From: Bacteriovoracaceae bacterium
GTDB taxonomy: Bacteria > Bdellovibrionota > Bacteriovoracia > Bacteriovoracales > Bacteriovoracaceae
Direction: 5' to 3'
DNA length: 64,000 nt
NCBI GenBank assembly: GCA_947377285.1
Contig: CANCFT010000006.1
Coordinates: 1-64,000, forward strand
Notes under the pieces: model-generated
What the model was told of the DNA's origin: nothing
The model's database searches: none
The model's input: only the letters and a program-made list of their open reading frames with translations
Part shown: one piece after another, positions 8,019 to 26,405 of the stretch
Numbering within the stretch: position 1 is the first letter of the stretch
How the letters are laid out: every line of letters begins with the position of its first letter
Position numbers and translations under genes: made by a program

Positions 8019-9578
8019 ATGACGAAAAAAGTTCAATTCACCCTTGATTATAACGAAGATGTAGAAACACATCTGGAAAAGAGCTATCCTGGTTTTCTAG
8101 ACTTTCGCATTCTCAATCAAGCTCTCGATGCTAGAGGCGCTAGCCGAGGCAAAGTTCCCCGCTATACATACAATATCGAATTGCTAGAAAGCGGAGAGCA
8201 ATTTGAAGCTGTTCAAGAAAAATTCACCAATGTGGGAGCGATTAATCTCCCTCCAATTATTATTGGTGGAGGCCCTGGTGGATTATTTTGTGCTCTAAGA
8301 CTGGCCGACTTTGGCGTTCCGTCAATTGTAATAGAAAGAGGTGACCGCGCCCACAACCGTATGCTTCATATTGCAAAGTTTTGGCGATATGGCGTATTTG
8401 ATCCAGAAAATAATGTTTGCTACGGAGAAGGTGGTGCCGGCCTATTTTCTGATGGTAAATTAATTACCCGGATTAAATCTCCATTTGTTCAATACGTAAT
8501 GAATAGATTTGTTGACTTTGGTGCACCTAAAGAAACAGCGTATATTTCAAATCCTCATTTGGGTTCAAATAGGATCAGAGGTCTCATCAATAAAATGACT
8601 GACTATCTCCAGTCAATTGGAACGCAGGTTCGATATAATACAAGAGTTGATAAATTACTTTTTGAAAATGGAAAGGCCGTTGGTGTTGAATTGCATAATG
8701 GTGAAAAACTTTTTTCTAATTCTATTGTCTTGGCCGTCGGTCACTCCGCTAAAGAGATGTACCATCATTTAGCAGAGCTAGGTGTCGACATGAAACAAAA
8801 AGATTTTGCCATAGGTGTTCGAATTGAACATCCTCGCGAGCTTATTGACCAAATTCAATATGGAAAATTTGCGGGTCTTGATTTAGGTGCTGCTCGGTAC
8901 CGATTGAGTTATGAAGACGCTCAAACCAAAAAAGGAACTTATAGTTTTTGTATGTGCCCTGGGGGATATGTTTTATCTTCAGGGACTGAGGCCCAAGGAA
9001 TTGCTGTTAATGGAATGAGTAATTATGCACGAAACTCTCGTTGGTCAAATGCGGCCCTCGTCGTCAGTGTGAAGGCCGGAATTGATTTTGACCAAACAAA
9101 TCTTTTAGCTGGCTTAGATTTTCAGCATTCTATCGAGCAGCGTGCCTATGAAGCTTCAAAAGGCAATGCGACAGGCAGAGAGTTACCGGCCCAAACTCTA
9201 AAAGAATTTATGGAAAACAAAATGTCAGTTAATACTCCAATTATTAAAACTTCAACTCCATCTGGAATTGTTAAGACATCATTGCGAGAGATACTGCCAG
9301 AATTTGTAACTAAACATTTAGAGAATGCTCTGTTAAAGTTTGATGAAAATTTGAAAGGATTTGTCTCTGATAAGGCCCTATTGATAGCACCAGAAACTAG
9401 AACGAGCTCGCCAATAACTATTTTGCGAGACAAAGAGACACTTGAATCAACTAGCCATCATGGCCTTTATCCATGCGGAGAAGGAGCTGGACACGCGGGA
9501 GGAATTACCTCTGCAGCTGTGGATGGAGTAAAGATAGCGATGTCTATTATTAAAAAAGAAAAAGGATTTGAATTGTGA
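8019..9578 (+). CDS. FAD-dependent dehydrogenase, COG2509 type (519 aa)
   Basis: An N-terminal alpha/beta segment (about 1-75) is followed by the FAD-binding Rossmann motif GGGPGG (83-88). The C-terminal FAD motif is CGEGAGHAGGITSAAVDG. This arrangement is typical of the uncharacterised COG2509 'FAD-dependent dehydrogenases'. No substrate is established for the family. It is the first gene of a six-gene plus-strand operon. The next gene starts with a GTG overlapping its stop by 4 nt. The company of FabG, FabZ and a CrtI-like flavoprotein suggests lipid redox chemistry, but it could simply be a co-transcribed neighbour. Confidence 0.88.
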   Translation: MTKKVQFTLDYNEDVETHLEKSYPGFLDFRILNQALDARGASRGKVPRYTYNIELLESGEQFEAVQEKFTNVGAINLPPIIIGGGPGGLFCALRLADFGVPSIVIERGDRAHNRMLHIAKFWRYGVFDPENNVCYGEGGAGLFSDGKLITRIKSPFVQYVMNRFVDFGAPKETAYISNPHLGSNRIRGLINKMTDYLQSIGTQVRYNTRVDKLLFENGKAVGVELHNGEKLFSNSIVLAVGHSAKEMYHHLAELGVDMKQKDFAIGVRIEHPRELIDQIQYGKFAGLDLGAARYRLSYEDAQTKKGTYSFCMCPGGYVLSSGTEAQGIAVNGMSNYARNSRWSNAALVVSVKAGIDFDQTNLLAGLDFQHSIEQRAYEASKGNATGRELPAQTLKEFMENKMSVNTPIIKTSTPSGIVKTSLREILPEFVTKHLENALLKFDENLKGFVSDKALLIAPETRTSSPITILRDKETLESTSHHGLYPCGEGAGHAGGITSAAVDGVKIAMSIIKKEKGFEL

Positions 9579-10822
9579 AAATAAGTCATTTAGTTAATCT
9601 GTTTTTGTCATTAAGTATTTTAGGCATACTAAGTTTTAATCAAACTGCATTTGCCACGATTTCTCACTATAACCCACCAGAAATTTTGGCACGGGCCAAT
9701 ATCACGGATGGTTTTAATATCCCCCCGATGAGTTTTTTAAATAATACCTCTCCAGTTATAAATAATAATGGTGATGTTGCTTTTAAAATTGTCTCAGTTG
9801 GCGGTGTTAATACCCAAGTTATTTGGGTAAAAAAACATGAGGAAGCTAGTGGCACTATACTCTATGAAGCACCCGATGAAAGATTTATTACAGAACCTTC
9901 AATCAGTAATAATGGTAAAATTGCCTTCAATCTTTATGATGAAGGTGTGACCGACGGATTATTTTTGCTTGATATAGAAACTAAAGATGCCGAGCAAGTA
10001 CTCGATCCAGATAATCGGCCTATTCAATTTTATACTTACCCTCAAGTTCTCTCTAATAATTCAATTTACTTTCGTGGTACTGATGATTTTAATGACAGAA
10101 GTTATTTTGAATACAATGGAGTTAAACTTAATAAAATTATCAGCGAAGGAGTTGAGAGTTTAGGAATTAAATCTTCTTATCTTTTTAGACCAACTGTTAA
10201 TGAAGTTGGGCAAATTGCTTTTAAAGCTCGTCTTGGAGATAAAGGTCAATGGGATGAGTCCAATCCGGATTCAATTATTTTACTAACTCCTGGAACTTCT
10301 CCCGTGCAAACGAACATGACCAAAACAATAATTGCGAAAGATACAGACGGGGATCCACATTCTGTCTATACCAAATTTGGAAATTCTGTTTCTCTATCTA
10401 ATCATGGTCTAGTGGCCTTTATGGGCGTAATAAGTGACTCTAAAAAAGTTATTGTTGTCTCAAAAGATAATATCCTAACCACATATGCCAAAGAAGGTGA
10501 AAGTGGCATTTCTGAAATAGAAATGTTTGCTCCGAAAATTAATGACCAAGGTACTGTATTATTCCGGGCACGGGATATTGAAGGTAAGCGAAGTCTCTTT
10601 TTAGCCGACGGTGTAAATGTTAAAAGAGTCATTGGTGAAGGAGATGAAATACAAACAGATCTTGGGACTGGAAAAATTTTATCAAATCCAAATTTTCCAG
10701 GTTTTGGTGGAGAAATTGATATGAACGACCAAGGTGAAATAGTCTTTTATTGTTTTATAGTATCAAGTGATAATAAAGAATTGGGTTCAGCTGTTTATAA
10801 AATCACACCCAAAAATAATTAG
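9575..10822 (+). CDS. exported NxxGxxAF tandem-repeat protein (415 aa)
   Basis: The start is a GTG overlapping the preceding stop (GTGA), with AAAGGA about 10 nt upstream. A signal peptide occupies roughly residues 1-28. The mature protein shows about six copies of an N/D-x-x-G-x-[IV]-[AL]-F motif, including NNNGDVAFK, NNGKIAF, NHGLVAF and DQGEIVF. This resembles the 'choice-of-anchor tandem repeat NxxGxxAF' proteins, which are predicted beta-propeller-like extracellular proteins of unknown function. No sorting domain is visible at the C-terminus. Finding it inside a lipid-synthesis operon is odd. It may bind or move the product at the cell surface, which is speculation. Confidence 0.8.
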   Translation: MKISHLVNLFLSLSILGILSFNQTAFATISHYNPPEILARANITDGFNIPPMSFLNNTSPVINNNGDVAFKIVSVGGVNTQVIWVKKHEEASGTILYEAPDERFITEPSISNNGKIAFNLYDEGVTDGLFLLDIETKDAEQVLDPDNRPIQFYTYPQVLSNNSIYFRGTDDFNDRSYFEYNGVKLNKIISEGVESLGIKSSYLFRPTVNEVGQIAFKARLGDKGQWDESNPDSIILLTPGTSPVQTNMTKTIIAKDTDGDPHSVYTKFGNSVSLSNHGLVAFMGVISDSKKVIVVSKDNILTTYAKEGESGISEIEMFAPKINDQGTVLFRARDIEGKRSLFLADGVNVKRVIGEGDEIQTDLGTGKILSNPNFPGFGGEIDMNDQGEIVFYCFIVSSDNKELGSAVYKITPKNN

Positions 10823-10833
10823 TAAAAATTTTT

Positions 10834-12279
10834 ATGCAATATTCTTCTAGAGATAAAATTTCAAAATCATATGATGTTATAGTCGTAGGCGCAGGCCTGG
10901 CCGGAATGACCCTCGCCAATAAAATGGCACGTGACGGGCGCTCAGTATTATTATTAGAGTCTCATAATAAATTAGGTGGGTTTGCTACATGGTTTAAGCG
11001 ACTTGAAGGAGAACATATTTTTGATGTTTCTCTCCATGGTTTTCCTGTTGGAATGATTAAAACCTGCAGAAAATATTGGAGCCGCGAAATCGCTGATCGT
11101 ATTCATCAATTAAAATCTGTTCGTTATATTAATCCTCAATTTGAAGTGGAAACAGATTTCACCAAAGAGCACTTCATTAAAGTTTTGAATGAACATTTTG
11201 GTGTGAGTATAGAGAGTGTACAAGCTTTTTTTGATGAATTGGGCGCTATGAATTTTTATGATAATTCTCAAATGACTAATGGTGAATTATTCCAAAAACA
11301 TTTTCCCGGTAGAAATGATATTACACGTTTTCTCTTAGAACCCATTGTTTATGCCAATGGTTCTAACTTAGAAGATCCGGCCATAAGTTACGGAATTGTC
11401 TTTTCAAATTTTATGAGTAAAGGCGTTTATATTTTTCAAGGGGGGACAGATTTGATGATCTCCATGATGAAAGATGAACTTTTAAAAAATGGAGTAGACA
11501 TCCAAACTCAGGCCCGGGTAGATAAAATTTTAGTCAATAATGATAAAAGAGTTTATGGAGTAGAAATTAAAGGTCATCAAATTATTTCTCACTCTGTTGT
11601 TTCTAATTCAAACCTCAAATCGACTGTCCAAAAAATGGTGGGCGAAAATTATTTTAGTGAAGAGTTTGTTAAAAAAACGGCCGCAGTTCGCTTAAACACT
11701 TCTTCGTGCCAAGTCTATATGGGAATTAAAAAAGGGGAGAGTATCCCTTTTGTTGGGGACTTGGTTTTTACCAGTGAAGATTCAAGTTTTTCTACTGATT
11801 TGATTTTATCTCCCAAAGTTGGTAGTCAAACTTTTTCAGTTTATTATCCTGACTCTAGACCCCACTTAGCGCCCGCACACGCAGTGGTATCATCTTCCAA
11901 TGCTCGTTTTGAAGATTGGATCAACCTAAGCGAAAGTGAATACCAAAAGCAAAAAGAATATATAATTGAAAAAGCGATTTCAGGACTAGAGAAAATTATT
12001 CCAGGTGTTCGCCAAAAAATTGATTATGTAGATGCTGCGACTCCATTAACTGTTGAGAGATATACATTGCACGAAAAAGGTGCAAGTTTTGGAACTAAAT
12101 TTGAAGGTCTTGATGTCTCAATGAATATGCACAAAGAACTCGATGGTCTCTTTCATGCAGGATCAGTGGGTATTATTATGTCTGGTTGGTTAGGGGCCGC
12201 TAACTACGGTGTCATTCAGGCCCATGAAGTTGATAATTACTTAAGCCGACTTGAAAAATCTGGATCAAAGGAAAAATAA
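10834..12279 (+). CDS. CrtI/CrtISO-like FAD-dependent oxidoreductase (481 aa)
   Basis: A dinucleotide-binding motif GAGLAG (19-24) follows a short N-terminal strand, with the acidic end of beta2 (LLLLES) and the GG of LGGFATW. The C-terminal FAD motif is GSVGIIMSGWLGAANYG. Length and architecture match the phytoene desaturase / carotenoid isomerase / retinol saturase superfamily. No carotenoid genes (crtB, crtE, crtY) are present. It is followed after 2 nt by fabG and then fabZ, so the substrate is more likely an acyl or polyene chain on carrier protein or in lipid. A second family member lies at 22864-24258 in the facing operon. Confidence 0.85.
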   Translation: MQYSSRDKISKSYDVIVVGAGLAGMTLANKMARDGRSVLLLESHNKLGGFATWFKRLEGEHIFDVSLHGFPVGMIKTCRKYWSREIADRIHQLKSVRYINPQFEVETDFTKEHFIKVLNEHFGVSIESVQAFFDELGAMNFYDNSQMTNGELFQKHFPGRNDITRFLLEPIVYANGSNLEDPAISYGIVFSNFMSKGVYIFQGGTDLMISMMKDELLKNGVDIQTQARVDKILVNNDKRVYGVEIKGHQIISHSVVSNSNLKSTVQKMVGENYFSEEFVKKTAAVRLNTSSCQVYMGIKKGESIPFVGDLVFTSEDSSFSTDLILSPKVGSQTFSVYYPDSRPHLAPAHAVVSSSNARFEDWINLSESEYQKQKEYIIEKAISGLEKIIPGVRQKIDYVDAATPLTVERYTLHEKGASFGTKFEGLDVSMNMHKELDGLFHAGSVGIIMSGWLGAANYGVIQAHEVDNYLSRLEKSGSKEK

Positions 12280-12281
12280 AG

Positions 12282-13019
12282 ATGAAATTTAATAATCAAA
12301 CGGCCATTGTTACTGGTGGAACTCGTGGAATTGGCAAAGGTATTGTTCAAGCTTTTTTAAAAGAAGGGGCAACGGTCATCGCCACTTATGCTGGCAATGA
12401 TGAAGCTGCAGCTAAATTTAAAAATGAATGCCTTCTTTATGGTGATAAATTAATTATAAAAAAATGTGATGTTCGCGATGAAGTGGCCATTGTCCATTTT
12501 TTTTCTGAAGTTGAGTTAACTCATCCGCAAATTGATATTCTTGTGAATAATTCTGGAATTAGAAAAGATCAATTAACAGCAACAATGACACTTGCTGATT
12601 GGAATGATGTGATCTCAACTAATCTCACTGGAACTTTTTTGATGAGTAAACATGCAGTTCTACAATTTATGAAAAATCGCTATGGCAGAATCGTAAATAT
12701 GTCTTCGATTGGTGGATCTTTAGGTTTAGCGGGCCAAGCCAATTATGCGGCCTCTAAGGCCGGACAAATTGCTATTTCAAAATCCCTTTCTAAAGAAGTC
12801 GCCAAGCGTGGAATTACCGTTAATAATGTCTGTCCTGGATTTATTGATACAGAATTATTGGCCGATCTTCCCATAGATCAAAGAAAAGAATATATGAAAG
12901 ATGTTCCAATGAAGCGTTTTGGTACAGTTGAAGAAGTAGCGGCGGCAGTTTTATTTTTGGCCAGTAAAGAGGCCAGTTATATTACTGGAGCAAGTCTTGA
13001 GATTTCAGGAGGTCTTTAA
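12282..13019 (+). CDS. fabG: 3-oxoacyl-ACP reductase FabG-type SDR
   Basis: A classical short-chain dehydrogenase of 245 residues, the length of E. coli FabG. The cofactor motif is TGGTRGIGKG (11-20), NNSG is at 89-92, and the catalytic residues are Asn114, Ser142, Tyr155 and Lys159, with the FabG-like GQANYAASKAG context. It should reduce 3-oxoacyl-ACP to 3-hydroxyacyl-ACP with NADPH. Its stop overlaps the fabZ start by 1 nt. Its place between a CrtI-like flavoprotein and a dehydratase suggests a pathway-specific copy rather than the housekeeping gene. Confidence 0.9.
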   Translation: MKFNNQTAIVTGGTRGIGKGIVQAFLKEGATVIATYAGNDEAAAKFKNECLLYGDKLIIKKCDVRDEVAIVHFFSEVELTHPQIDILVNNSGIRKDQLTATMTLADWNDVISTNLTGTFLMSKHAVLQFMKNRYGRIVNMSSIGGSLGLAGQANYAASKAGQIAISKSLSKEVAKRGITVNNVCPGFIDTELLADLPIDQRKEYMKDVPMKRFGTVEEVAAAVLFLASKEASYITGASLEISGGL

Positions 13020-13435
13020 TGGACTATCCAAAAATCACGGATTTGATCCCTCAGCGACCTCCTTTTTTATTTGTTGATAAAATTACCAATCTTTCTGAAA
13101 ATAAAATTTCAACGTCTCTGACTCTATCTGGTAATGAAGATTTCTTTAAGGGGCATTTTCCAGGAAACCCCATTATGCCGGGTGTCCTTTTACAAGAAGC
13201 TTTATTCCAAACAGGGGCCGCATTAATGTCTCAAAAAACTGGAACAGGTCTTGGTGTAGTGACGAGAGTTCAAAATGCAAAATTTAAAAACATGGTGAAG
13301 CCTCAAGATACATTAGAAATGGAAGTAGAGTTAGTTGATAGTCTTGCTAATGCTAGTTTTATGAAAGGGACGACTCGAGTTAATGGCAAAATAGTACTAA
13401 GTCTTGAGTTTGCTGTGGCCAGTATACAAGGATAA
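13019..13435 (+). CDS. fabZ: 3-hydroxyacyl-ACP dehydratase FabZ-type
   Basis: A hotdog-fold protein of 138 residues. The FabZ signature GHFPGNPIMPGVL holds catalytic His46, and Glu60 follows 14 residues later, as in FabZ. It dehydrates 3-hydroxyacyl-ACP to trans-2-enoyl-ACP. The start ATG overlaps the fabG stop, so the two are translationally coupled. Together with FabG, the FabI-like gene, and the FabF and ACP of the opposite operon it completes an elongation cycle. Confidence 0.92.
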   Translation: MDYPKITDLIPQRPPFLFVDKITNLSENKISTSLTLSGNEDFFKGHFPGNPIMPGVLLQEALFQTGAALMSQKTGTGLGVVTRVQNAKFKNMVKPQDTLEMEVELVDSLANASFMKGTTRVNGKIVLSLEFAVASIQG

Positions 13436-13439
13436 GATC

Positions 13440-14237
13440 ATGAGCTTTCTTAATTTAGATAATAAAACATTTTTAATCACGGGTGTTGCAAATAAAAAAT
13501 CAGTTGCCTATTTCACTGCCAAACTTTTAATAGAAAACGGAGCGGATTGCCTCTTTACAGTTTTAAATGAAGAGATCAAAGACCGAGTTGAAAAATTATT
13601 TCCTGGGAAAAAAGTCTATCTACTTAATGTTGAGCAAGTTGAAGATATTCAAAATTTTGGAGAAATACTAAAACAGGATGGAGTGAAATTAAATGGTTTT
13701 TTACATTCAATTGCTTTTGCTAATTATTCTGAAGGGATGAAGCCTTTTCATGAAACGAAATTACGTGATTATTTGCAGGCGACTACTATTTCAAGTTTCT
13801 CTTTAGTCGCCATTTCAAATGCAATCAAAGACTCACTTGATCCAAAATCGTCAGTGGTAACTATTTCCATTTCAAATACTAAGGCCACCAATTATGGATA
13901 TATGGGACCAATTAAAGCCTCACTTGAAACAACTGTATTATTTTTAGCGAAATCTTTTTCTACTTTTTCTAATATAAGATTTAATGCAGTTTGTGCAGGT
14001 CCATTAAAAACGAGTGCCTCGGCGGGTATTCCTGGATATATAGACAATTATCTTTTTGCAGAACAATTAACGATGAGAAGAATTGCTCTGGAAACAATTG
14101 AAGTTGCCAATACAGCTGTGTTCTTATTAAGTAATGCTTCAAGTGGAATTAATGCTAGTGGGATTGTTGTAGATAGTGGGATGAGTTCTAATACGTTTGA
14201 TGAAAAAGTAGTTCATGCTTTTTCAAAAAATTCTTAA
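13440..14237 (+). CDS. FabI-like enoyl-ACP reductase with an altered active site (265 aa)
   Basis: The start is the ATG at 13440, with AAGGA 7 nt upstream; an earlier in-frame ATG at 13404 would overlap fabZ. The sequence has the FabI start (ITGVANKKSVAY), a LHSIAFAN segment and the Y-x6-K pair (Tyr152, Lys159) followed by ASLE. The upstream catalytic Tyr of FabI (Tyr146 in E. coli) is not conserved: the TLSYLG region reads TISISN and is about two residues shorter. It could be a divergent enoyl reductase, a reductase for an unusual substrate, or catalytically impaired. It is the last gene of the operon and stops 1 bp short of the convergent gene. Confidence 0.8.
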   Translation: MSFLNLDNKTFLITGVANKKSVAYFTAKLLIENGADCLFTVLNEEIKDRVEKLFPGKKVYLLNVEQVEDIQNFGEILKQDGVKLNGFLHSIAFANYSEGMKPFHETKLRDYLQATTISSFSLVAISNAIKDSLDPKSSVVTISISNTKATNYGYMGPIKASLETTVLFLAKSFSTFSNIRFNAVCAGPLKTSASAGIPGYIDNYLFAEQLTMRRIALETIEVANTAVFLLSNASSGINASGIVVDSGMSSNTFDEKVVHAFSKNS

Positions 14238-14238
14238 A

Positions 14239-15057
14239 TTAAGTCATTTTTTTTAATATAAAAATGATGTTTAATAAGTATAGGACGATGGCCCCATAAA
14301 TCATGGATAAATAAATTTCGGCATCGCGCGCCTTTGCTTCAATAGATTCTTGGTAATATTTTCCCACGATTATTAATTCTTTATTGATTGAGGTATCGAG
14401 ATTAAATCCCTCTACAATATGATTTATTTCCTTAGTTCTTTTTAAAATAATATCAAGATAACCACTATATCTTTGAATAATTGGATTGGGAGAAGTGGCA
14501 AAATTAAGAATTTGTCCTAACACTTTTTTGTCTTGAACAAGACGATCTTCGTTTAACGGACTTGAAATACTGATAAATAAAAGTGCATCGTTTAAACTTT
14601 CTCGGTAAAAATCTTTATTATCGACTGAAAATTTTATTTTATTTTGAACAAGCTCATTATAAATTGGATTTAGAGCATTGACGGCTTTATTTAATTCATT
14701 CAATCCCATTTGTAGTTTATTTAATTCAATTAATTTTTTATCAAAATATTTTTGAATTTTTCCAATTGATGAAGAAAGCTCTGGGGTGCTTTTGTTTACA
14801 TCTGTCACGATATTCAAAAGTTCATTTAAGCGATTCATTTGAGCTGCAAGTTGATTCGTTTCACTATTTAAATTCATTCTTAAAAGTGCTGCACTTGCAT
14901 TAATTTGCAAATCCGTATAGCGGAGTTCTTCAAAATTGACCTTTTGATTTTTAGTAGGCGGGTCGAGAAGAAAAATATTTTTGTAGAATAATAAACCGCT
15001 ACTTATCGTTAAAAGCACCACTGACAAAATAAAAATAATAATCCGAAATCCTTTCAT
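14239..15057 (-). CDS. membrane protein with coiled-coil periplasmic region, function unknown
   Basis: One transmembrane helix follows the N-terminal MKGFR, and another is at the extreme C-terminus (about 22 hydrophobic residues before KKMT). The region between them is Leu/Asn-rich, helical and heptad-like, suggesting coiled coils in the periplasm. I prefer the ATG at 15057 because it gives a clean membrane start. An in-frame GTG at 15105, with TAGG just upstream, would add 16 residues and cannot be excluded. No family is recognised. It abuts the FabI-like gene tail to tail. Confidence 0.7.
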   Translation of the reverse strand: MKGFRIIIFILSVVLLTISSGLLFYKNIFLLDPPTKNQKVNFEELRYTDLQINASAALLRMNLNSETNQLAAQMNRLNELLNIVTDVNKSTPELSSSIGKIQKYFDKKLIELNKLQMGLNELNKAVNALNPIYNELVQNKIKFSVDNKDFYRESLNDALLFISISSPLNEDRLVQDKKVLGQILNFATSPNPIIQRYSGYLDIILKRTKEINHIVEGFNLDTSINKELIIVGKYYQESIEAKARDAEIYLSMIYGAIVLYLLNIIFILKKMT

Positions 15058-15149
15058 AGACAGTATTCTAACAGGTTGCCTGGGAATGAGAACTATTTTT
15101 GGCACTATTGCCTAGAGTTTTAAGCGCTAAATCACAGGAACTATTTCCG

Positions 15150-15177
15150 TCAAGTTCTTCCTTGGTCCTACCGATGA
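15150..15177 (+). promoter_or_regulatory. sigma-28 (FliA)-type promoter
   Basis: TCAA (15150-15153) is followed after 16 nt by ACCGATGA. The -35 shares the extended TCAAGTT with the promoter at 6273. Initiation near 15185 would leave a leader of about 27 nt before the ATG at 15212, including AGAGG. This supports that start over the ATG at 15188. Confidence 0.55.
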
Positions 15178-15211
15178 GTCTGTCATAATGGCGACTAGAG
15201 GCATGGTGACT

Positions 15212-17290: not shown

Positions 17291-17302
17291 TTTATAAGTT
17301 GA

Positions 17303-18310: not shown

Positions 18311-18316
18311 CGATCG

Positions 18317-19318
18317 TTATCTCAGAGATCTAAAATAGCGCTCAATGCCTTCCTCTATACTGACCTTAGGATTATATCCTAAATCCTTGCTTAAATTCTG
18401 ATGACTAAAATAATGGGATTTCGCTAATTGCAAAGCTATAAATCGAGTCATTGGTGGATGTATATTATTTATTCGAAAAAGTTTCAAAAAACTTTCAATC
18501 AAAAATCCTATTATATAAGCTCTTTTAAAAGATATTTTTTGGGTCACTGGTGGAAGCCCTGCATGTTTTAGTAGATCATTGGTAAAATCCCATAGCTTCA
18601 CAGGTCCTTGTCCTAAAAAATAAGCTTTCCCTGCAATTGGGTGCCCAATGGAAAGTTGTTCAAGTGCCATAATATGAGCATCCGCAGCGTTTTCAACATA
18701 AGTAACATCAACTAGGTTTTCACCATCACCAATTATTTTTAGCCGTTTTTTTCTTTGTGCCTCTAAAACTCTCGGTATGAGATTTAAATCCCCAGGACCG
18801 AAAATTAAGTGGGGACGAATGGCCATTGTGAGAAGTTGATGATTAGTACTATCATTAGCAGCTAAAACTATTTTTTCAGCGATTGATTTTGTAGTAGCAT
18901 AATGAGTTAGGTATTTAGTTGGGTAGGGAGTTGATTCATCCACTCCACATAAACTTTCTCGCTCAAAGACCACACTAGGTGTGCTGGTATAAATTAATTT
19001 AGAAACACTATGTTTTTTCATCGCCTTAATAAGATTTTCGGTTCCGGTGACATTGGCAGCAAAAAAATCTGTATACCGCCCCCACATTCCAACCATTGAA
19101 GCTGTGTGAATGACAGCATCTACGCCTATAACGGCAATTTCAATTTCGTTAAAGTTAGCAAGATCTCCAATGAATTGATTGACTCCAAGTTCATTTAAAA
19201 AAGAATATTTTTTTCGTGAAAAACTTGAAACAATATAGCCTTTTTTGATTAAGTCTCGAGTGATATAACTTCCTAAAAAGCCCCCTGCACCGGTCACTAA
19301 AACTTTAGTTAATTTCAT
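18317..19318 (-). CDS. oleD: OleD, 2-alkyl-3-oxoalkanoate reductase
   Basis: An extended short-chain dehydrogenase/reductase. It has the NAD(P) motif GAGGFLG (10-16), a YTSTPSVVF segment typical of 3-beta-HSD/OleD proteins, and the catalytic Tyr140-x3-Lys144 (YATTK). OleD reduces the 2-alkyl-3-ketoacid made by OleA to the 2-alkyl-3-hydroxyacid. The ATG at 19318 is preferred; a TTG at 19327 is possible. The start overlaps the end of oleC, placing it last in the eight-gene operon. The order oleA-oleB-oleC-oleD is the standard arrangement for the pathway. Confidence 0.9.
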   Translation of the reverse strand: MKLTKVLVTGAGGFLGSYITRDLIKKGYIVSSFSRKKYSFLNELGVNQFIGDLANFNEIEIAVIGVDAVIHTASMVGMWGRYTDFFAANVTGTENLIKAMKKHSVSKLIYTSTPSVVFERESLCGVDESTPYPTKYLTHYATTKSIAEKIVLAANDSTNHQLLTMAIRPHLIFGPGDLNLIPRVLEAQRKKRLKIIGDGENLVDVTYVENAADAHIMALEQLSIGHPIAGKAYFLGQGPVKLWDFTNDLLKHAGLPPVTQKISFKRAYIIGFLIESFLKLFRINNIHPPMTRFIALQLAKSHYFSHQNLSKDLGYNPKVSIEEGIERYFRSLR

Positions 19319-20951
19319 GATGTTCAATTTCTTCTTTTAATTTAAGTCGGTCAATTTTAATATTATGCCTAACATCGACTGGAAAACTTTTGCTTAAGTA
19401 AATTTTATGAATATTTTTTGTGTGTGGATATTTTTTAGCCACGGCTAAAAGTTCACTTTCAAAAATAGAACGGTTTTTTCCTGATAAATACTGTCCATCT
19501 CGTCTTTCAATCACGATGGCCGGAGTTTGTGATCCAGCAGGCCCTAGGCCCACGAGTGCAGATCTTTTTACCAGAGGGTGTTTATTAAATATCGCTTCAC
19601 ATGGAATAGGAAAAAGAGTTTGGGTTTGAGTAGTCACTAAATGAGATTTTCTCCCACAAAACCAAAGAAGACCTAAATTATCGATATACCCTAAGTCTCC
19701 CATTCGGTGCCAGAAAGTATTATTCGAATCAGGTATTTTGGCTTCACGAGTTTTTTCAGGAAGATTCAAATACTCTTTTGTCGCCACTATGCCTTTGACA
19801 ATGATTTCTCCAACTTCTTTTGGGGCAACTAAAAGACCTTCATGAAATTGGGAAATACTTTCATCAGTTATTTTAATAATTTTTATTTCTATTCCTGGAG
19901 TTGCTAAACCAATACAAGTTCCAAAGCCTTCGTCGCTTAAATGAGCTGTATTTTTTAAGACAAATTCACCTGAAATATTACTGACGGGAAGAGCTTCAGT
20001 TGCACCATAAGGAGTATAAGTGGTTCCGTTAGGTAAAATAGATTTAAATTTCACATGAATCTTTACAGAAACGGGTGCTCCAAACATGACGACGTATTTT
20101 ATTGAAGGAAGAACGATTGATTCTTCCAAGCAATAGTCGGCGACACGCTCCCAAATGGCAGGAGAGCCAGCAACAAAAGTAGGTTTTAATTCGCGAATAT
20201 TCTGAACAATTTTTTGGGGATTGCAGCTACCTGGTTTAGTTGGATCCATATCTGGAATACAAGATGTCATCCCCATAGCAATTGTAAAAAGTGAAAAAAG
20301 AGGGAAGCCTGGCATGTCGATATCATTTGAAGTTAAATGATACATCTCTTGCAAGAGAGTAGTCTGTTGTTCAAAAATTTGATGAGTATAAACGACTCCC
20401 TTAGGTGAACCCGTTCCACCAGAAGTAAATAAGACTGCTGCCATATCATCGGATTCAAATTCTTTAGAAGGAAAGTTTTGTTTCTTTTCTTGTTTCATTT
20501 TTTTTATACTGATCATTTTTCCCCAAGTAAATGATCCATTCGTCACATTCATTTTGATGGATTTAAAAATGCTTGGGTAAAAAATTTTAAGTAGATGGAC
20601 TTGTGATTCAGCAATAAGGCCGATTGGCCCTGCTTCTTGAATGCATTTTAGTAAGTTTTTAATCCCCATACCTGGGTCAATAAAAACTGGAACGACTCCC
20701 AATTTAAATAAGGCAAAAGTCATGGCGGAAAATTCTAGACTTGGTTTTAAAAAGAGGAGCGTTTTATCTCCGGCCTTAAGACCTAGTTTTTGAAGACTGG
20801 TGGCAAATTTATTTGAAAGGATATCAAGTTCTTTAAACGTTAAAGATGAATAATTATATTTTTGAGTTTTTTTATCAAAAGTAGGAAAAATGACAGCTTT
20901 TTTATCTGGAGTAGATTTAGCAAATTGAGTTAAGCGAGTGGCAATATTCAT
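19305..20951 (-). CDS. oleC: OleC, beta-lactone synthetase (AMP-dependent ligase family)
   Basis: The 548 residues match the acyl-CoA synthetase/adenylate-forming superfamily. The P-loop-like TSGGTGSPKG is at 176-185, a YGATEALP motif is present, and so is the downstream adenylate motif region (HRMGDLGYIDNLGLLWFCGRK). In the olefin pathway OleC adenylates the 2-alkyl-3-hydroxyacid and closes it to a beta-lactone. It starts with the ATG immediately after the oleB stop and overlaps oleD at its end. Position beside oleA, oleB and oleD separates it from generic fatty-acyl-CoA ligases. Confidence 0.92.
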   Translation of the reverse strand: MNIATRLTQFAKSTPDKKAVIFPTFDKKTQKYNYSSLTFKELDILSNKFATSLQKLGLKAGDKTLLFLKPSLEFSAMTFALFKLGVVPVFIDPGMGIKNLLKCIQEAGPIGLIAESQVHLLKIFYPSIFKSIKMNVTNGSFTWGKMISIKKMKQEKKQNFPSKEFESDDMAAVLFTSGGTGSPKGVVYTHQIFEQQTTLLQEMYHLTSNDIDMPGFPLFSLFTIAMGMTSCIPDMDPTKPGSCNPQKIVQNIRELKPTFVAGSPAIWERVADYCLEESIVLPSIKYVVMFGAPVSVKIHVKFKSILPNGTTYTPYGATEALPVSNISGEFVLKNTAHLSDEGFGTCIGLATPGIEIKIIKITDESISQFHEGLLVAPKEVGEIIVKGIVATKEYLNLPEKTREAKIPDSNNTFWHRMGDLGYIDNLGLLWFCGRKSHLVTTQTQTLFPIPCEAIFNKHPLVKRSALVGLGPAGSQTPAIVIERRDGQYLSGKNRSIFESELLAVAKKYPHTKNIHKIYLSKSFPVDVRHNIKIDRLKLKEEIEHHEIN

Positions 20952-21842
20952 TTATGAGTCCTTTAAAAATGTCTCAATCTCACTTATGACAGCACTGGTT
21001 TCATCTTCTATTAGGTAATGTCCGGCATTCGGATAGGTAATTGAATGGGCGTTTGGAAAAATATCAAGCCAGCGTTTTTGAAAATTCATGGTGAAACAAA
21101 AATCTTTTTCACCCCATAATAATAAAACTGGTGCTTTTATTTCAGGAAGTTTTTCTTCAATTCTCTTCAAGGTTTTGTATGTCGGGTGTTGATCATTTAA
21201 TGGGATATCGTCGACAAATTTTGCAGTCGCAATCCTTGATTCATAATCATGATAGGGAAAGATAAATCCTTTTTTTACAATAGGACTCAAGCCTTTTTTG
21301 GAGGCCATAAAAGTTGCGGGATACGCAAAGCCATTAAACTTTCTTATAAACCATTGTCCAACTGGATTTTTTAAAATATTAATTCTTGTTGGAATTTCTA
21401 AGGACCTAAAAGCCGCAGTATTCATTACGACCATTTTTTTGATGAGCTGTGGATATTTGGTCGCAAGCCCCATACCTATAGCTCCACCCCAATCATGAAC
21501 AACTAAAGTAATATTTGTAAGTTTTTCTTTTTCAACTAAGTGGCATAAATTGTCTATATGAGTTTGCAAAGTATAGTTATAGTCCTGAGGCTTACTCGAG
21601 AGGCCACACCCAATATGATCAGGAACTATTACTCTAAAATTTTTTGAAAAATGTTTAGTTAAATTGCGGTAGAAAAATGACCAAGTTGGATTACCATGAA
21701 GCATAAGGATCACTTCGCCCTGGCCCTCGTCTATATAGTGGTACTGCTCATTTTTAATTGAGAGAAAATGAGAAGCGAACGGGTATTCTTGTTTTAAATC
21801 TTGCGGTATACTTGAAACGTTTTTTAGCTGATTCATCACCAT
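20952..21842 (-). CDS. oleB: OleB, beta-lactone decarboxylase (alpha/beta hydrolase)
   Basis: A 296-residue haloalkane-dehalogenase-like alpha/beta hydrolase. It has the oxyanion motif HGNPTW (49-54), nucleophile Asp117 in HDWGG, an acid near Asp247 (GEKDF) and His275 (NAGHYL). An Asp nucleophile is expected for OleB, which decarboxylates the beta-lactone made by OleC to the final cis-alkene. Two starts are possible: ATG at 21842 (7-nt overlap with oleA), or ATG at 21836 forming TGATG with the oleA stop. Both give tight translational coupling. Confidence 0.92.
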   Translation of the reverse strand: MVMNQLKNVSSIPQDLKQEYPFASHFLSIKNEQYHYIDEGQGEVILMLHGNPTWSFFYRNLTKHFSKNFRVIVPDHIGCGLSSKPQDYNYTLQTHIDNLCHLVEKEKLTNITLVVHDWGGAIGMGLATKYPQLIKKMVVMNTAAFRSLEIPTRINILKNPVGQWFIRKFNGFAYPATFMASKKGLSPIVKKGFIFPYHDYESRIATAKFVDDIPLNDQHPTYKTLKRIEEKLPEIKAPVLLLWGEKDFCFTMNFQKRWLDIFPNAHSITYPNAGHYLIEDETSAVISEIETFLKDS

Positions 21843-22867
21843 TGTACTCCAAGCATAATTGAACTCAATCCAGATCCTATTCCTAACAAGGCAATTTTAT
21901 CATTTTTTTGAATTAACCCTAAATCATGGGCCATCATCAACGTAATAGGTAATGCACTTGAACCAGTATTTCCAAGAGTAGGATATGTCCGATATGTTTT
22001 TTTATTTGTTAATTCTAGAGATTCGAGCGACATTTTTTCGTGGGCCGTTCCCACTTGATGAGTCAGCACAAAATCAGGAGTTTCATTAGTCCATGATAAT
22101 TCATGTAATAATTTTTTCCAAGTTGATTGGGCCAAGGCAACACCATACTTTAGTAATTCTTCCGAATCTGTTTCCATGACTAGGGAGTGAGTATTGCCAT
22201 CTCCTCGGCAGAGGTGATTGGCACTAGAATCTGTCTCATGAGCTCCACCTAAAATTTGTGGAGAATGAGGACTAAATTTTTTATGCGTAAGCAGAATTGC
22301 TGTTGCAGCAGATCCAATTGTTAAATTGGCGATGTATTTTTTAATCGATTTTCTGTCAATTGATTGATTCGTTAGAAGCTCATTAATTGTATTTTCTAAT
22401 AATGGCCCGCCATTTTCACCACTAACAATAAGGGCAAATTGAATCTGGCCGTTTTCAATCATATTACCGGCCACTACGATGGCATTTATGACTCCCAAGC
22501 AAGCATTGGAGAGATCAAAAATCATGGCATTGCGATTGAGTCCGAGATTGGCGTGCACTACCGATGCTGTGGCAGGTTCTAAGAAATCTCGGCACACGGA
22601 TGCGTGGATAAGCAGATCTATTTTATCTTTAGAAAGATTTGATTTTTTTAAACAATTTTCTGCTGCCATTGTTGAGAGATCACTAGGTTTGGTCCCTAAA
22701 GGCCAAACTCGTCTAGATGTTATTCCTGTCATTAATTCGAGTCTTCCCTCCGGAAGTTTTAATTTTTGATAAAGGGGTGTTAATCGGTCTTCAATCGCGA
22801 TTGAAGTTAAGCTCACATCAGAAAGTGCGTGGCCCATAGATTCTATAACAACATTATTAAATTTCAT
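21836..22867 (-). CDS. oleA: OleA, thiolase-superfamily head-to-head acyl condensing enzyme
   Basis: A 343-residue thiolase/KAS III-like enzyme. The nucleophile is Cys123 (SNACLG), with His270 (LTHQVG) and Asn300 (LGNTGSSALP). Glu97 (FLEPAT) lies where OleA carries its distinctive glutamate base; that alignment is by eye. OleA joins two fatty acyl thioesters head to head to give a 2-alkyl-3-ketoacid, the committed step of long-chain olefin synthesis. The ATG overlaps the preceding CrtI-like gene by 4 nt. Downstream oleB, oleC and oleD confirm the assignment over FabH. Confidence 0.93.
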   Translation of the reverse strand: MKFNNVVIESMGHALSDVSLTSIAIEDRLTPLYQKLKLPEGRLELMTGITSRRVWPLGTKPSDLSTMAAENCLKKSNLSKDKIDLLIHASVCRDFLEPATASVVHANLGLNRNAMIFDLSNACLGVINAIVVAGNMIENGQIQFALIVSGENGGPLLENTINELLTNQSIDRKSIKKYIANLTIGSAATAILLTHKKFSPHSPQILGGAHETDSSANHLCRGDGNTHSLVMETDSEELLKYGVALAQSTWKKLLHELSWTNETPDFVLTHQVGTAHEKMSLESLELTNKKTYRTYPTLGNTGSSALPITLMMAHDLGLIQKNDKIALLGIGSGLSSIMLGVQW

Positions 22868-24258
22868 AAAGCACTCTGAAGAACATGAAGATTGGCCATG
22901 GAAATTCCTGAAAGCATAGAACCTACAATCCCTAAAAATCCCTGATCAGTCCCACATATATAAAGTCCAGCAATTGGAGTTGTGCCATTTCTTGATTTAT
23001 CAATTGAGCCATAAACTGCTCCATTGAAATGATTGGTATATTTTTTAACGGTCGTAGGAGTAAATATGTCTTTAAACTTAACTTCAAAGTTTGAGCTCAT
23101 TCCACAATTTTTTAAAATACTAAGGCCGTGATTATACACGTCTAGTTTTTTTTCGTTATAACCAACTTTTGAAAGTAATAATTCTTGGTTCCACAATTCA
23201 AAGTTCGCAATATTAGTTACCCTTAAAACACCTTCATCAAAATCATCATGAAGAAAATTATTAGGGAAACAGACAACAGCACTCTGGTGATCAAATAAAG
23301 TTTGTGGTCTTTGGTATAAATAGGTTGGTCTATTATTATAAAAAATAATGGTGGCATCGATGCCTAAGTCTTTTGGTTTTTTATCAGTGATTATTATACT
23401 TTCTGTAAATGACAAATTGCCAGTTCTGGGTGAATAATCCAATTGGGCATCTAGGACACTCATTGTTTCTGGTAGCCCCATAGAAGACAAGATTGAGTTA
23501 CATTCAATGATTTCACTTCCATTGATTTCTACTCCAACAACCACTCCATCTTTTGAAATAATGCGAGAGACTTCAGTTTTAAAAAGAATTTCGCCGCCAC
23601 AAGTATCAAGTCTTTTCAGGAGCAAATCAATGATTGTACGCACTCCGCCCTCAGGTCGCCCGAAGCCTTCAAGGAAAATACTTTTGAACATAATCACAAA
23701 TTGTGAAAAATCCATGTCGTTTTCCCAGGCACTTCCATAAATAAGGAGTGGACAAAAAATCATTTCTACCAGGGCTTCACTTTTTATAAAATTTCTTACG
23801 ACAATTTTTGCCATAATAACTTCATTTGAAAGATCTACTTCATTAAAGTTTTTTATATGATTTAAAAGGCTAATAAACCCATCAATTTCATCTGGAAAAT
23901 GAGTTCTTATTTCCTCAATGAAAAAATCAATTTCATTGGTAAATTTTAGAGTTTGATCTGGAAATTGAATTAATGAGTGACTCTGGGGATGAATTTTAAA
24001 TTCTTCATACGGAATGCGAAGCTGCTTCATTAATTTATTAAAAGGCTTTCCTCTTTGATTGGGGCCTACAAAATTAGTCAAAGCATGAAGGCCGACATCA
24101 AATTTTCTTTTTCCGCGAGAGTAATAGGAATTAAGCCCTCCGGATATAGAGTGTTTTTCAAGAATTAAAATTTTTTTATTATACATTGAAAGCCGAATGC
24201 CAGCAGCTAAGCCTGACATTCCGGCCCCTATGATAATTGTGTCGACCATTTTATTCAT
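22864..24258 (-). CDS. second CrtI/CrtISO-like FAD-dependent oxidoreductase (464 aa)
   Basis: The FAD motif is GAGMSG (11-16), with a following EKHSISGGL and a GLHAL segment common to phytoene desaturase/retinol saturase proteins. The C-terminal FAD-contact region is GTDQGFLGIVGSMLSG. The start overlaps the acyl carrier protein stop by 1 nt (TAATG), and the end overlaps oleA by 4 nt. It therefore sits precisely between ACP and OleA. That position suggests it acts on the acyl chain before head-to-head condensation, introducing, isomerising or reducing double bonds. No carotenoid genes accompany it. Confidence 0.87.
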   Translation of the reverse strand: MNKMVDTIIIGAGMSGLAAGIRLSMYNKKILILEKHSISGGLNSYYSRGKRKFDVGLHALTNFVGPNQRGKPFNKLMKQLRIPYEEFKIHPQSHSLIQFPDQTLKFTNEIDFFIEEIRTHFPDEIDGFISLLNHIKNFNEVDLSNEVIMAKIVVRNFIKSEALVEMIFCPLLIYGSAWENDMDFSQFVIMFKSIFLEGFGRPEGGVRTIIDLLLKRLDTCGGEILFKTEVSRIISKDGVVVGVEINGSEIIECNSILSSMGLPETMSVLDAQLDYSPRTGNLSFTESIIITDKKPKDLGIDATIIFYNNRPTYLYQRPQTLFDHQSAVVCFPNNFLHDDFDEGVLRVTNIANFELWNQELLLSKVGYNEKKLDVYNHGLSILKNCGMSSNFEVKFKDIFTPTTVKKYTNHFNGAVYGSIDKSRNGTTPIAGLYICGTDQGFLGIVGSMLSGISMANLHVLQSAL

Positions 24259-24509
24259 TAAGAATTAAATTTTGGTGCTAAATACTCAACACAAGATTGC
24301 ATTGAGGCAAGTCTTGTATAATCTTCTTGAGGTACTTCAATTTTATGGCGTTTTTTTAATTCCATAACGATGTCTAAAAAATCCATTGAATCAAGATCAA
24401 GTTGTTCTCTTAAAGAGACTTCATCTTTAATCCCTGTCACATCATCATCAAGAGCGATATCGGCAATAATATCTAAAACTTTTGAGCGTACTTCTTCATT
24501 TGTTAACAT
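24258..24509 (-). CDS. acyl carrier protein
   Basis: An 83-residue acidic four-helix carrier protein. The phosphopantetheine site is Ser41 in LDLDSMDFLDIV, slightly different from the DSLE of the housekeeping AcpP, which suggests a pathway-specific carrier. It overlaps fabF by 7 nt upstream and the CrtI-like gene by 1 nt downstream. A dedicated ACP/KAS pair in an ole operon implies that the acyl chains are built on this carrier before use by OleA. Confidence 0.93.
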   Translation of the reverse strand: MLTNEEVRSKVLDIIADIALDDDVTGIKDEVSLREQLDLDSMDFLDIVMELKKRHKIEVPQEDYTRLASMQSCVEYLAPKFNS

Positions 24510-25753
24510 AATGACTCCTTAAACTTTTGAACAATTAACGTTGAATTTATTCCGAGCATACCGAATGAATTATTTAAAATGATTTTGACGTCATGAGCGA
24601 CTTTTTCGCCATTGACTAAATTTTTCACATTGCACTGAGGATCGAGATTGTGAATTTTTTTACAGGGGTGAATATAACCATCAGTAAAACTAGGAATATT
24701 TCCTGCAAGCTCAAGGGCACCTGCAGCTCCCATGGCGTGTCCAATAAAACCTTTAGTTGCATTCACATGAACGTTTGGTTGATCGCCAAAAAGTTTTTGC
24801 ACGGCCACACATTCTTGGATATCTCCTTGAAGTGTTCCAGTGGCATGCATACTGACAATATCAACTTCATTGATTTCAATCCCAGCCTTTTTTATGGCCA
24901 TGGTCATGCATTCAATTTGGCGTTCAGTATTAGGTAAAACAAAATCACTAGCATCACTATTGCTATGATAACCAATGATTTCGGCGACAATCTTAGCTTT
25001 TCGTTTTTTTGCATCACTTAATCGCTCAAGCACATAAACGGCTCCACCTTCCGAGACGACAATTCCATTTCTCTCTATATCAAGAGGTCTGGTGGCCAAA
25101 GCAGGATCTTCATGGTGTCCTAAAGCTCCTTGGGCCTTAAAAGCCGCAAAGATTCCAAATGTTTCAGTAGATTCAGAAATTCCGCCTGCTAGGGCCAGGT
25201 CGACTTCATCTAATAAGAGTTGTTGAACCCCTTGAATGATCCCTAAATTCCCAGCAGCACAAGCTGCACCGATTGTATAATGAGGGCCAGTAATGCCTAA
25301 ATTAAGTGTGACTTCACCTGCAGGATTATTGGCAACAGTTCGCGGGTTATGGTGATGTGACCATAAAGAAACATCCATTTCGTGTGAGTGATAGAGATCG
25401 TGAATTTCATTTTCTGTTTCAACATTGCCGTGTTCAGTAATGCCTAAATAAACACCCACTCGGTTTTTATCAATTGAAGCAAATTCAATTCCAGAATGAT
25501 TGATGGCTTCATTAGTACAATAAATAGAAATGGCCCCTGCTCTTGTGCCTCTTTTTCTCATTTTTTTGGGTTGGTATTTTGCTTCATCAAATTTGCACAA
25601 CCCAGCAGCCACGACACCCATATGACGAATTTCGGTATGAGAAATTCCAGATCCATTATTTAAGAGTCCATCTCGTAATTCAGCTAAATTATTTCCCATG
25701 GGAGAGACAAGGCCTATTCCGGTAATAACAATTCTTTGATTGTCTGGTTTCAT
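24503..25753 (-). CDS. fabF: 3-oxoacyl-ACP synthase, KAS II (FabF) type
   Basis: A 416-residue KAS I/II family condensing enzyme with the Cys-His-His triad: Cys165 (GAACAAG), His303 (SMHATGT) and His339 (KGFIGHAMGAAG). It elongates acyl-ACP with malonyl-ACP. There is no adjacent chain-length-factor-like inactive KAS, so it probably works as a homodimer. It begins 1 nt after the regulator stop and overlaps the ACP gene. Context argues for a specialised elongating enzyme dedicated to the olefin operon rather than general fatty-acid synthesis. Confidence 0.92.
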   Translation of the reverse strand: MKPDNQRIVITGIGLVSPMGNNLAELRDGLLNNGSGISHTEIRHMGVVAAGLCKFDEAKYQPKKMRKRGTRAGAISIYCTNEAINHSGIEFASIDKNRVGVYLGITEHGNVETENEIHDLYHSHEMDVSLWSHHHNPRTVANNPAGEVTLNLGITGPHYTIGAACAAGNLGIIQGVQQLLLDEVDLALAGGISESTETFGIFAAFKAQGALGHHEDPALATRPLDIERNGIVVSEGGAVYVLERLSDAKKRKAKIVAEIIGYHSNSDASDFVLPNTERQIECMTMAIKKAGIEINEVDIVSMHATGTLQGDIQECVAVQKLFGDQPNVHVNATKGFIGHAMGAAGALELAGNIPSFTDGYIHPCKKIHNLDPQCNVKNLVNGEKVAHDVKIILNNSFGMLGINSTLIVQKFKESLC

Positions 25754-25754
25754 G

Positions 25755-26405
25755 TTAGCGCAGTCCTTTAAAATTATTTTTTAGTGTGTTCGTTAAACTT
25801 TCTTTTAAACTAGTAGTCATATCTGCAATAGGGCCAGCAGTTCCAGCAATTAAATCGAGGGCCTTAGGCAATTTTTTGATAATAGCTTCATACTGGGCCG
25901 AATACAGCTCATGGTGCTCTCGAGATTTATTTTGAGCAATGGTGATGACAAAGTTCATAACTGATTCAGCAATTTCACAAGTACTAATAATAGAAATCAT
26001 CCGTTTTCTTCGAGCATCGTTAGCAGGTGTTTGTTGGGATCTATCTAAAACTCTTTGGGCCATATTTTTAAATTCGACAATATATTCTTCTTCTCTTTTT
26101 CTAAAAACAGAAGCGACAATATTAAGTGAATCTTCTCTCGCAGAGTGGACGCGTGCCTTAGAATTTTCTCGTAAATCCTTGGTCTCAATGGCACCAAAAT
26201 GGGAGAGTGTTTTAAGTGAAAGTGACACGGCACTTTGTGAGAGTTTAAGTGCGGCTTCAATTTCTTCTGAGGTGAGTGGTTTTTGGGCAAGAACTAATAA
26301 GCCAAATACTGAACCATCGATACGTTTAAAACCTATATGGCTAAAAAACATTTCGAAATGCGGCAATTCTTTAAGAATTTCGGGTTCAATAAACACGGCA
26401 GACAA
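25755..26405 (-). CDS. GbsR/MarR-type winged-helix transcriptional regulator
   Basis: 216 residues. The N-terminal winged helix-turn-helix (about 30-90) shows LTSEEIEAALKLSQSAVSLSLK, read as the DNA-recognition region, followed by a wing with FGAIETK. This matches COG1510/GbsR-like MarR relatives. The C-terminal half is helical and probably a dimerisation or ligand domain. It is the first gene of the fabF-ACP-crtI-oleABCD operon and lies 1 nt from fabF, so it is likely an autoregulatory repressor of the hydrocarbon operon. The ligand is unknown. Confidence 0.85.
   Translation of the reverse strand: MSAVFIEPEILKELPHFEMFFSHIGFKRIDGSVFGLLVLAQKPLTSEEIEAALKLSQSAVSLSLKTLSHFGAIETKDLRENSKARVHSAREDSLNIVASVFRKREEEYIVEFKNMAQRVLDRSQQTPANDARRKRMISIISTCEIAESVMNFVITIAQNKSREHHELYSAQYEAIIKKLPKALDLIAGTAGPIADMTTSLKESLTNTLKNNFKGLR

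Follow-up and report, generated by a model that had tools for sequence, protein, structure and literature searches.

The analysed window is a stretch of 64,000 nucleotides from a genome of the Bacteriovoracaceae, a family of bacterial predators (assembly GCA_947377285.1, contig CANCFT010000006.1, positions 1 to 64,000). This analysis concerns two facing operons in it that combine the olefin genes oleABCD with a set of fatty-acid synthesis genes and two CrtI-like flavoprotein genes. On the minus strand, from 26405 to 18317, the order is regulator-FabF-acyl carrier protein (ACP)-CrtI2-OleABCD; on the plus strand, from 10834 to 14237, it is CrtI1-FabG-FabZ-FabI. Neighbouring genes overlap or almost abut inside both operons, and three genes (14239-18310) separate them. 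FabF, ACP, CrtI2, CrtI1, FabG, FabZ and FabI are together called the module here.

Genes and active sites of the two operons

The minus-strand operon begins with the gene of an ArsR/TrmB-like helix-turn-helix (HTH) regulator (25755..26405; PF01022/PF01978). It is followed by genes for a FabF-type ketosynthase (24503..25753; PF00109/PF02801), a dedicated ACP (24258..24509; PF00550) and CrtI2, a CrtI/carotenoid-isomerase-like flavoprotein (22864..24258), and by the four contiguous genes oleA-oleD (18317-22867). OleA, the head-to-head condensing thiolase (21836..22867), matched NF006720 at 414 bits (cut-off 285). OleB (20952..21842) is an alpha/beta hydrolase (PF00561) with haloalkane-dehalogenase-like matches below the cut-offs, and its position makes it the probable beta-lactone decarboxylase. 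OleC (19305..20951), an AMP-binding beta-lactone synthetase (PF00501), scored 628 bits with NF006754 (cut-off 478); its second-ranked NCBIfam models were olefin beta-lactone synthetases, under their cut-offs. For OleD, the 2-alkyl-3-oxoalkanoate reductase (18317..19327; PF01073), the best NCBIfam match was NF042422 at 361 bits, below the cut-off of 580. The plus-strand operon encodes CrtI1, a second CrtI/carotenoid-isomerase-like flavoprotein (10834..12279), a FabG-type ketoacyl-ACP reductase (12282..13019; PF13561/PF00106), a FabZ-type dehydratase (13019..13435; PF07977), which reached 115.2 bits with NF000582 (cut-off 113) and stayed below the cut-off of TIGR01750, and a FabI-like enoyl reductase (13404..14237; PF13561), whose best NCBIfam models were FabI, all below their cut-offs. 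The FabI-like frame opens at TTG, and the true start may be a later ATG. Both flavoproteins were classified from Pfam and NCBIfam matches and AlphaFold2 (AF2) models. The gene names given in the sequence-only reading are each supported by Pfam or NCBIfam matches.

The active sites of these proteins are intact. Residues were compared in sets made of the window protein and its relatives with a near full-length frame, a few genomes being counted twice, at the catalytic motif positions. C165, H303, K334 and H339 of FabF were invariant in 94/94 sequences. The ACP serine (Ser41, within a D-S-M motif) and the methionine next to it were kept in 99/99. Full conservation was also found for D117 and H275 of OleB (59/59), Y143 and K147 of OleD (57/57), H46 and E60 of FabZ (54/54), and Y164 and K171 of the FabI-like protein (52/52). 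In FabG, Y155 and K159 were kept in 37/37 sequences and Ser141 in 29/37, with Thr in 7 and Gly in 1. The window FabZ did not score as a FabA (39 bits with TIGR01749, cut-off 238), and the position at which FabA has its catalytic Asp was occupied by Glu in 54/54 sequences. The phosphopantetheine site of the window ACP reads Asp-Ser-Met, and that of the other ACP of the genome, in a cluster on contig C14, Asp-Ser-Leu.

In OleA, C123, H270, N300 and the Glu97-Pro98 pair were invariant in 67/67 sequences; the Glu-Pro of the partner subunit is typical of OleA (PMC7064751). Compared with the OleABCD systems of Xanthomonas and Halobacteriovorax marinus, the window OleA, OleB and OleD have intact catalytic residues and OleC corresponds by family, whereas the window operon additionally includes an apparently private chain supply. 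In a p-nitrophenyl ester screen, which did not extend to Claisen activity, H. marinus OleA showed activity (PMC7064751).

Co-occurrence in the family and in other phyla

The sequence-only reading had taken the two operons to belong together and had set their failure to co-occur as the refutation; they do co-occur in the family, and other phyla have the set as well. Among 59 family genomes, CrtI2 was found in 46 and OleA in 45 (both at E <= 1e-20), and CrtI1 in 46 (E <= 1e-40). All three were present together in 44 genomes and none of them in 12. The 3 partial genomes are one without OleA, in which CrtI2 lies on a 3-kb contig (G033), one without CrtI1 (G048), and a 72% complete one with CrtI1 only (G054). 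When 191 genomes were drawn from the phylum, CrtI2 (E <= 1e-40) was found in 45, every one in the window's family.

The gene order was compared in 45 family loci with CrtI2. CrtI2 and OleA were adjacent in 42/42 loci holding both, and for the other pairs, counted where both members were present, adjacency held for FabF-ACP in 42/42, ACP-CrtI2 in 42/43, CrtI1-FabG in 20/20 and FabZ-FabI in 21/21. Three of the 45 stretches are without OleA: one ends there (L073), and for the other two OleA is on another contig (L074, L077). CrtI1 was in the same stretch as CrtI2 in 20/45 loci, facing it in 18 and co-directional in 2 (L044, L046). A 700-aa protein without Pfam match is encoded between the window operons (15188-17290, plus strand), and its relatives adjoin the module in 12 fetched family stretches (27-45% identity).

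Because these gene pairs are conserved side by side, a chance grouping is disfavoured. We regard it as very unlikely that the fab genes serve general lipids and that OleABCD, their neighbour by chance, draws on the common acyl pool. Such an explanation would suit fab enzymes that are ordinary by family, as these are; it is opposed by the strict co-occurrence of OleA, CrtI1 and CrtI2 and by the other fatty-acid genes of the window genome (assembly 92.75% complete). A separate FabH, FabD, FabG, ACP and FabF cluster is located on contig C14, where FabF shares 31% identity with that of the window; a FabZ gene lies between lpxD and lpxA on contig C1 (best model FabZ, 97 bits, below the cut-off), so the window fab set is an extra one. 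A third FabZ-like gene, on contig C28, scored 79 bits with an LpxC-FabZ fusion model and 73 with FabZ, both below the cut-offs. In addition, a second FabF with canonical residues, 58.5% identical to the window FabF, was observed near a contig end (G000:C8:144-1415, L184), and a Dehalococcoidales locus (L126) likewise has two such FabF. This second FabF may act as a further ketosynthase in the pathway.

Loci in other phyla were obtained by scanning named genome contigs with the family CrtI2 alignment. The best 80 of at least 157 relatives comprised 7 loci assigned to the window's family and 73 outside it, the latter labelled mainly Planctomycetota, Verrucomicrobiota, Nitrospinota, Chloroflexota, Lentisphaerae and Deltaproteobacteria. 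FabF-ACP-CrtI2-CrtI1-FabZ-FabI recur, often beside ole genes, in Deltaproteobacteria, Planctomycetota, Verrucomicrobiota, Nitrospinota and Chloroflexota. By set bit thresholds, and with many stretches short and cut by contig ends, FabF was present at 45 of the 73 outside loci, ACP at 52, CrtI1 at 37, FabZ at 30 and FabI at 27. All five were found at 26/73 loci, 21 of which have at least one ole gene; an ole gene was present at 28/73. Two loci of Deltaproteobacteria (L113, L116) carry the single run FabF-ACP-CrtI2-OleABCD-CrtI1-FabG-FabZ-FabI, and two of Planctomycetota (L130, L141) the order OleABCD-regulator-FabF-ACP-CrtI2-CrtI1-FabZ-FabI. A relative of the window HTH regulator lies beside FabF at 7/73 loci. 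The OleA test covered 50 of the 73 outside loci and found OleA in 44/50 genomes: in 34/38 chosen for FabF, ACP or CrtI1 beside CrtI2, and in 10/12 from the rest. A 35-row tree of CrtI1 places Nitrospinota on one branch and Verrucomicrobiota on another, and requires two changes for Planctomycetota.

One Desulfobacterales locus (L183, CrtI2 35% identical) was considered as a Desulfotalea-type cluster and rejected, since it adjoins menaquinone-type genes. Its divergent CrtI2 (2751-4142) has ACP and FabZ matches nearby, and OleA was not found in that genome at E <= 1e-20.

The left end of the region had been placed at 8019, which is probably too far out; we place the start of the plus-strand core at 10834. 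A FAD protein (8019-9578; PF21688) and a DUF7453 protein (9575-10822) were found near CrtI1 in 6/55 and 7/55 family stretches, respectively. They were rejected as parts of the pathway, since neither had a match at any of the 73 outside loci. Elsewhere in the window are an HMG-CoA reductase gene (39906-41240, plus strand) in a co-directional gene run (38875-44245) that is perhaps a mevalonate block, and a 1688-aa frame without Pfam match (951-6017, minus strand).

The module and Pfa-type synthases in Planctomycetota

The established routes to polyunsaturated chains are oxygen-dependent desaturases and Pfa megasynthases. Pfa-type synthases form the double bonds while elongating, and their FabA-like domains dehydrate and isomerise. 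The sequence-only reading had seen no PfaABCD supplier, and this held for the window genome at its 92.75% completeness: its four ketosynthase (KS) matches were all in frames of at most 460 aa, and no Pfa was seen. Nor was any frame of the window genome found to hold FabA-like dehydratase domains in tandem. No FabA was seen in it; the three single-domain FabA/FabZ-family genes all matched best to FabZ-type models, and those on C1 and C28 had no FabA model match at E <= 1e-8.

Among 199 Planctomycetota genomes, OleA (E <= 1e-50) was found in 70 and CrtI2 (E <= 1e-30) in 42, and all 42 are OleA-positive (Fisher p 1.2e-24, shared ancestry ignored). The FabA-domain search of the 70 genomes revealed, in 27 of the 28 that have OleA but no CrtI2, a single frame with FabA domains in tandem. 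Of these 27 frames, 22 are on the contig of oleA and 19 within 200 bp of it. The single exception is G270, whose OleA shows the lowest similarity (34%). No tandem FabA frame was found in any of the 42 CrtI2-positive genomes among the matches listed (p 1.5e-18, again with ancestry ignored); 39 of the 42 do appear among the best 150 FabA matches, with a longest frame of 790 aa. Three of the tandem-FabA frames were scanned and showed two KS and 3-4 FabA domains; two of the three also had an acyltransferase match, in one case below the cut-off. They have the layout of a Pfa synthase and fit the pfaBC-like arrangement (PMC3098273). A 54-row OleA tree, for which 20 of the 28 genomes without CrtI2 were fetched, puts 18 of these 20 on one 100/100 branch, and the OleA partners of the two kinds of supplier thus lie apart in it.

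Shulse and Allen linked the pfaBC-like layout to ole genes, and to C31:9 in Geobacter bemidjiensis (PMC3098273), and Allemann et al. obtained a 31:8 ketone in Escherichia coli from Pfa with OleA (PMC6463001). The Pfa system is also a supplier of OleA, as co-expression showed, and a Pfa-type frame stands beside oleA in Planctomycetota other than the CrtI2 carriers. We read the module and the Pfa-type frames as alternatives to each other in supplying OleABCD with polyunsaturated chains, and the module looks like a discrete-protein replacement of the polyunsaturated-fatty-acid synthase. Pfa consists of several multidomain proteins; in the window module every step falls to a separate small protein, and the role of FabA apparently to the flavoproteins. 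That a dedicated chain-building set feeds OleA, as the sequence-only reading had proposed, gains comparative support from this exclusive swap.

A proposed route to polyunsaturated hydrocarbons

We consider it fairly probable, judging from sequence comparison, that both operons form one oxygen-free pathway, in which a private type II fatty-acid synthesis (FASII) system and CrtI isomerases would make a polyunsaturated acyl-ACP, and OleABCD would convert it to a C31:9-type hydrocarbon. The polyunsaturated product, its chain length and the isomerase roles are what we infer. The private elongation system would consist of FabF, ACP, FabG, FabZ and FabI, with malonyl transfer and priming borrowed from the general fatty-acid system; the Dehalococcoidales locus L126 carries an acyltransferase of its own. 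CrtI1 and CrtI2 would act on the growing chain to give, without oxygen, a polyunsaturated acyl-ACP whose double bonds are methylene-interrupted and which is most probably 16:4 n-3. OleA would join two such chains head to head, and OleD, OleC and OleB would turn the joined product into the hydrocarbon.

The chain was derived from the C31:9 pattern 3,6,9,12,15,19,22,25,28, which is given in the title of a paper cited in the literature that we used; it follows from this pattern that two 16:4 n-3 chains need to be joined. In our own backward derivation by two-carbon steps, a repeat of three cycles (cis-3, then cis-2, then full reduction) would yield 16:4 n-3, with cis-3 formed at C6 and C12, cis-2 at C8 and C14, and full reduction at C4, C10 and C16. 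The functions required are KS, ACP, ketoreductase, dehydratase, enoyl reductase and two isomerisations, i.e., seven, and the window module has seven proteins. The isomerisations were assigned to CrtI1 and CrtI2 because the window FabZ has the Glu and scores as FabZ, not as FabA. The flavoproteins would then be enoyl isomerases and not desaturases, one converting trans-2 to cis-3 and the other trans-2 to cis-2.

Several observations bear on this isomerase pathway, and the first of them concern the flavoproteins themselves. In its favour, the best NCBIfam match of both CrtI1 and CrtI2 was the carotenoid isomerase model TIGR02730 (CRTISO; 107.1 and 89.6 bits, respectively); against it, both stayed far below the cut-off of 586.9 bits. 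The best TIGR02730 stretch of CrtI2 is N-terminal (residues 6-134) and contains the FAD-binding region, which makes the isomerase signal of this protein weaker. The AF2 models are good (predicted local distance difference test, pLDDT, 85.9 for CrtI1 and 94.5 for CrtI2) and have a CrtI fold, and the nearest PDB fold for both is 4rep, a carotene desaturase. The fold does not decide between an isomerase and a desaturase. The next NCBIfam matches were CrtD (91.9 and 51.1 bits) and CrtI (72.5 and 44.7 bits), and neither protein reached the 238.1-bit cut-off of the phytoene desaturase model TIGR02734. The carotenoid flavoenzymes CRTISO and CrtI have fold and sequence superfamily in common with CrtI1 and CrtI2; in contrast to them, the two window proteins score far under the carotenoid-family cut-offs and sit in operons of acyl-ACP chemistry, and they were therefore rejected as true carotenoid enzymes. 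The mean column identity of CrtI1 is 62% over 35 sequences.

The fold and the 4rep match would suit oxidative desaturation, the route proposed by Rattray et al. (PMC2649909), in which the private FASII would make a saturated or monounsaturated acyl-ACP that receives further double bonds by CrtI-like dehydrogenation before it reaches OleA. We hold this to be rather unlikely for the window. The best family matches of both proteins go to the isomerase model, and a private FabG-FabZ-FabI would be superfluous if the double bonds came after chain building. In the replacement partner, a Pfa-type synthase, the double bonds arise while the chain is being elongated. Moreover, the two anammox CrtI-like proteins of Kuenenia, possible homologues of CrtI1 and CrtI2, gave no lycopene in E. 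coli (Javidpour 2016; PMC4790861).

The other unfavourable observations concern distribution. FabG lies beside the module at only 9/73 outside loci, and since it is mostly not beside the module in other phyla, its step is perhaps borrowed there. At 20/73 loci no FabF, ACP or CrtI1 over threshold was found beside CrtI2. One of these 20 (L137) has a partial CrtI1; the 20 also include L128, L134, L136, L142, L153, L163, L171, L176, L179 and L182. OleA was not found in 4 of the 38 module genomes. In Planctomycetota, at most eight CrtI2 candidates were scored per genome, and the FabA-domain search covered the best 150 matches, down to about E 1e-20; three CrtI2-positive genomes (G241, G417, G446) had no FabA match among these and weaker matches only. 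The Fisher p-values ignore shared ancestry, and the exclusivity may reflect a few clade-level swaps. A type-I polyketide synthase (PKS)-like frame of more than 900 aa occurs in at least 15/57 module genomes (e.g., 3739 aa in G241). Carriers with a long frame of this kind are Bythopirellula polymerisocia Pla144 (G241) and Botrimarina colliarenosi Pla108 (G242); other named carriers are Planctomycetes bacterium Poly30, in which no such frame was found, and Bacteriovorax sp. DB6_IX. PfaA over the TIGR02813 cut-off was found in 0/57 module genomes, the window genome included, with at most four candidates scored per genome, and also in 0/14 control genomes, so this search is without a positive control.

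CrtI-like enzymes can act on conjugated polyenes, and OleA might receive another unusual chain, such as a conjugated polyene or a chain with isomerised bonds or extra saturation, the hydrocarbon then not being of the C31:9 type. No product report was found for any carrier of the module, which would leave room for such a chain; we nevertheless consider it improbable, given the swap with tandem-FabA Pfa-type synthases and the case of Desulfotalea psychrophila. The FASII clusters of this bacterium include three CrtI-like genes, and it has no PKS, a case that also counts in favour of the polyunsaturated pathway proposed above. C31:8 and C31:9 were measured in it by Rattray et al., who proposed an anaerobic desaturation route and described FASII clusters with CrtI-like genes in D. 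psychrophila and Kuenenia (PMC2649909). Compared by description, the window locus resembles these clusters in its extra FabF, ACP, FabG and FabZ, its CrtI-like flavoproteins and its lack of a PKS. It differs from them in that they have radical S-adenosylmethionine (SAM) and other genes, with FabI elsewhere (PMC2649909), whereas FabI and OleABCD lie inside the window locus and no radical SAM gene was found among the 20 genes scanned around it. The terms OleA, olefin and head-to-head are absent from the available text of that paper.

The same likeness raises the question of ladderanes. FabF, ACP, FabG, FabZ and CrtI-like genes are common to the anammox clusters, and the best PDB matches of the window FabZ were 7qv0 and 8ayc, which we take to be the Kuenenia enzyme, other FabZ entries scoring nearly as high. 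The anammox ladderane cluster, unlike the window locus, has radical SAM genes and non-canonical FabF paralogues: among the 20 genes scanned (6656-29268) there was no radical SAM or methyltransferase match, and the FabF residues are canonical. A set supplying ladderane-type lipids or their precursors was rejected on these grounds, and we see scarcely any chance of it.

That the isomerase pathway represents a third route to polyunsaturated chains is a claim we hold tentatively, at a little less than an even chance. Such a route would be a discrete-protein FASII with redox-neutral 2,3-/2,2-enoyl-ACP isomerases of the CrtI fold, present in no fewer than five phyla; it would serve head-to-head polyene hydrocarbons alone and could be exchanged for Pfa. 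Among the papers listed by a literature search, judged by title and start of abstract and with most subscription journals outside its reach, none dealt with the module beside Ole or with its replacing Pfa. Rattray et al. left open how a bacterium lacking Pfa makes C31:9-type hydrocarbons; to this question the locus contributes a minimal set of genes, their distribution across phyla, carriers known by name and a definite hypothesis on the enzymes. If the proposal is true, these bacteria would make omega-3 polyunsaturated chains independently of oxygen with small separate enzymes, which would be useful for engineering, and work on the CrtI-like enzymes in the ladderane problem would gain a starting point that can be tested.

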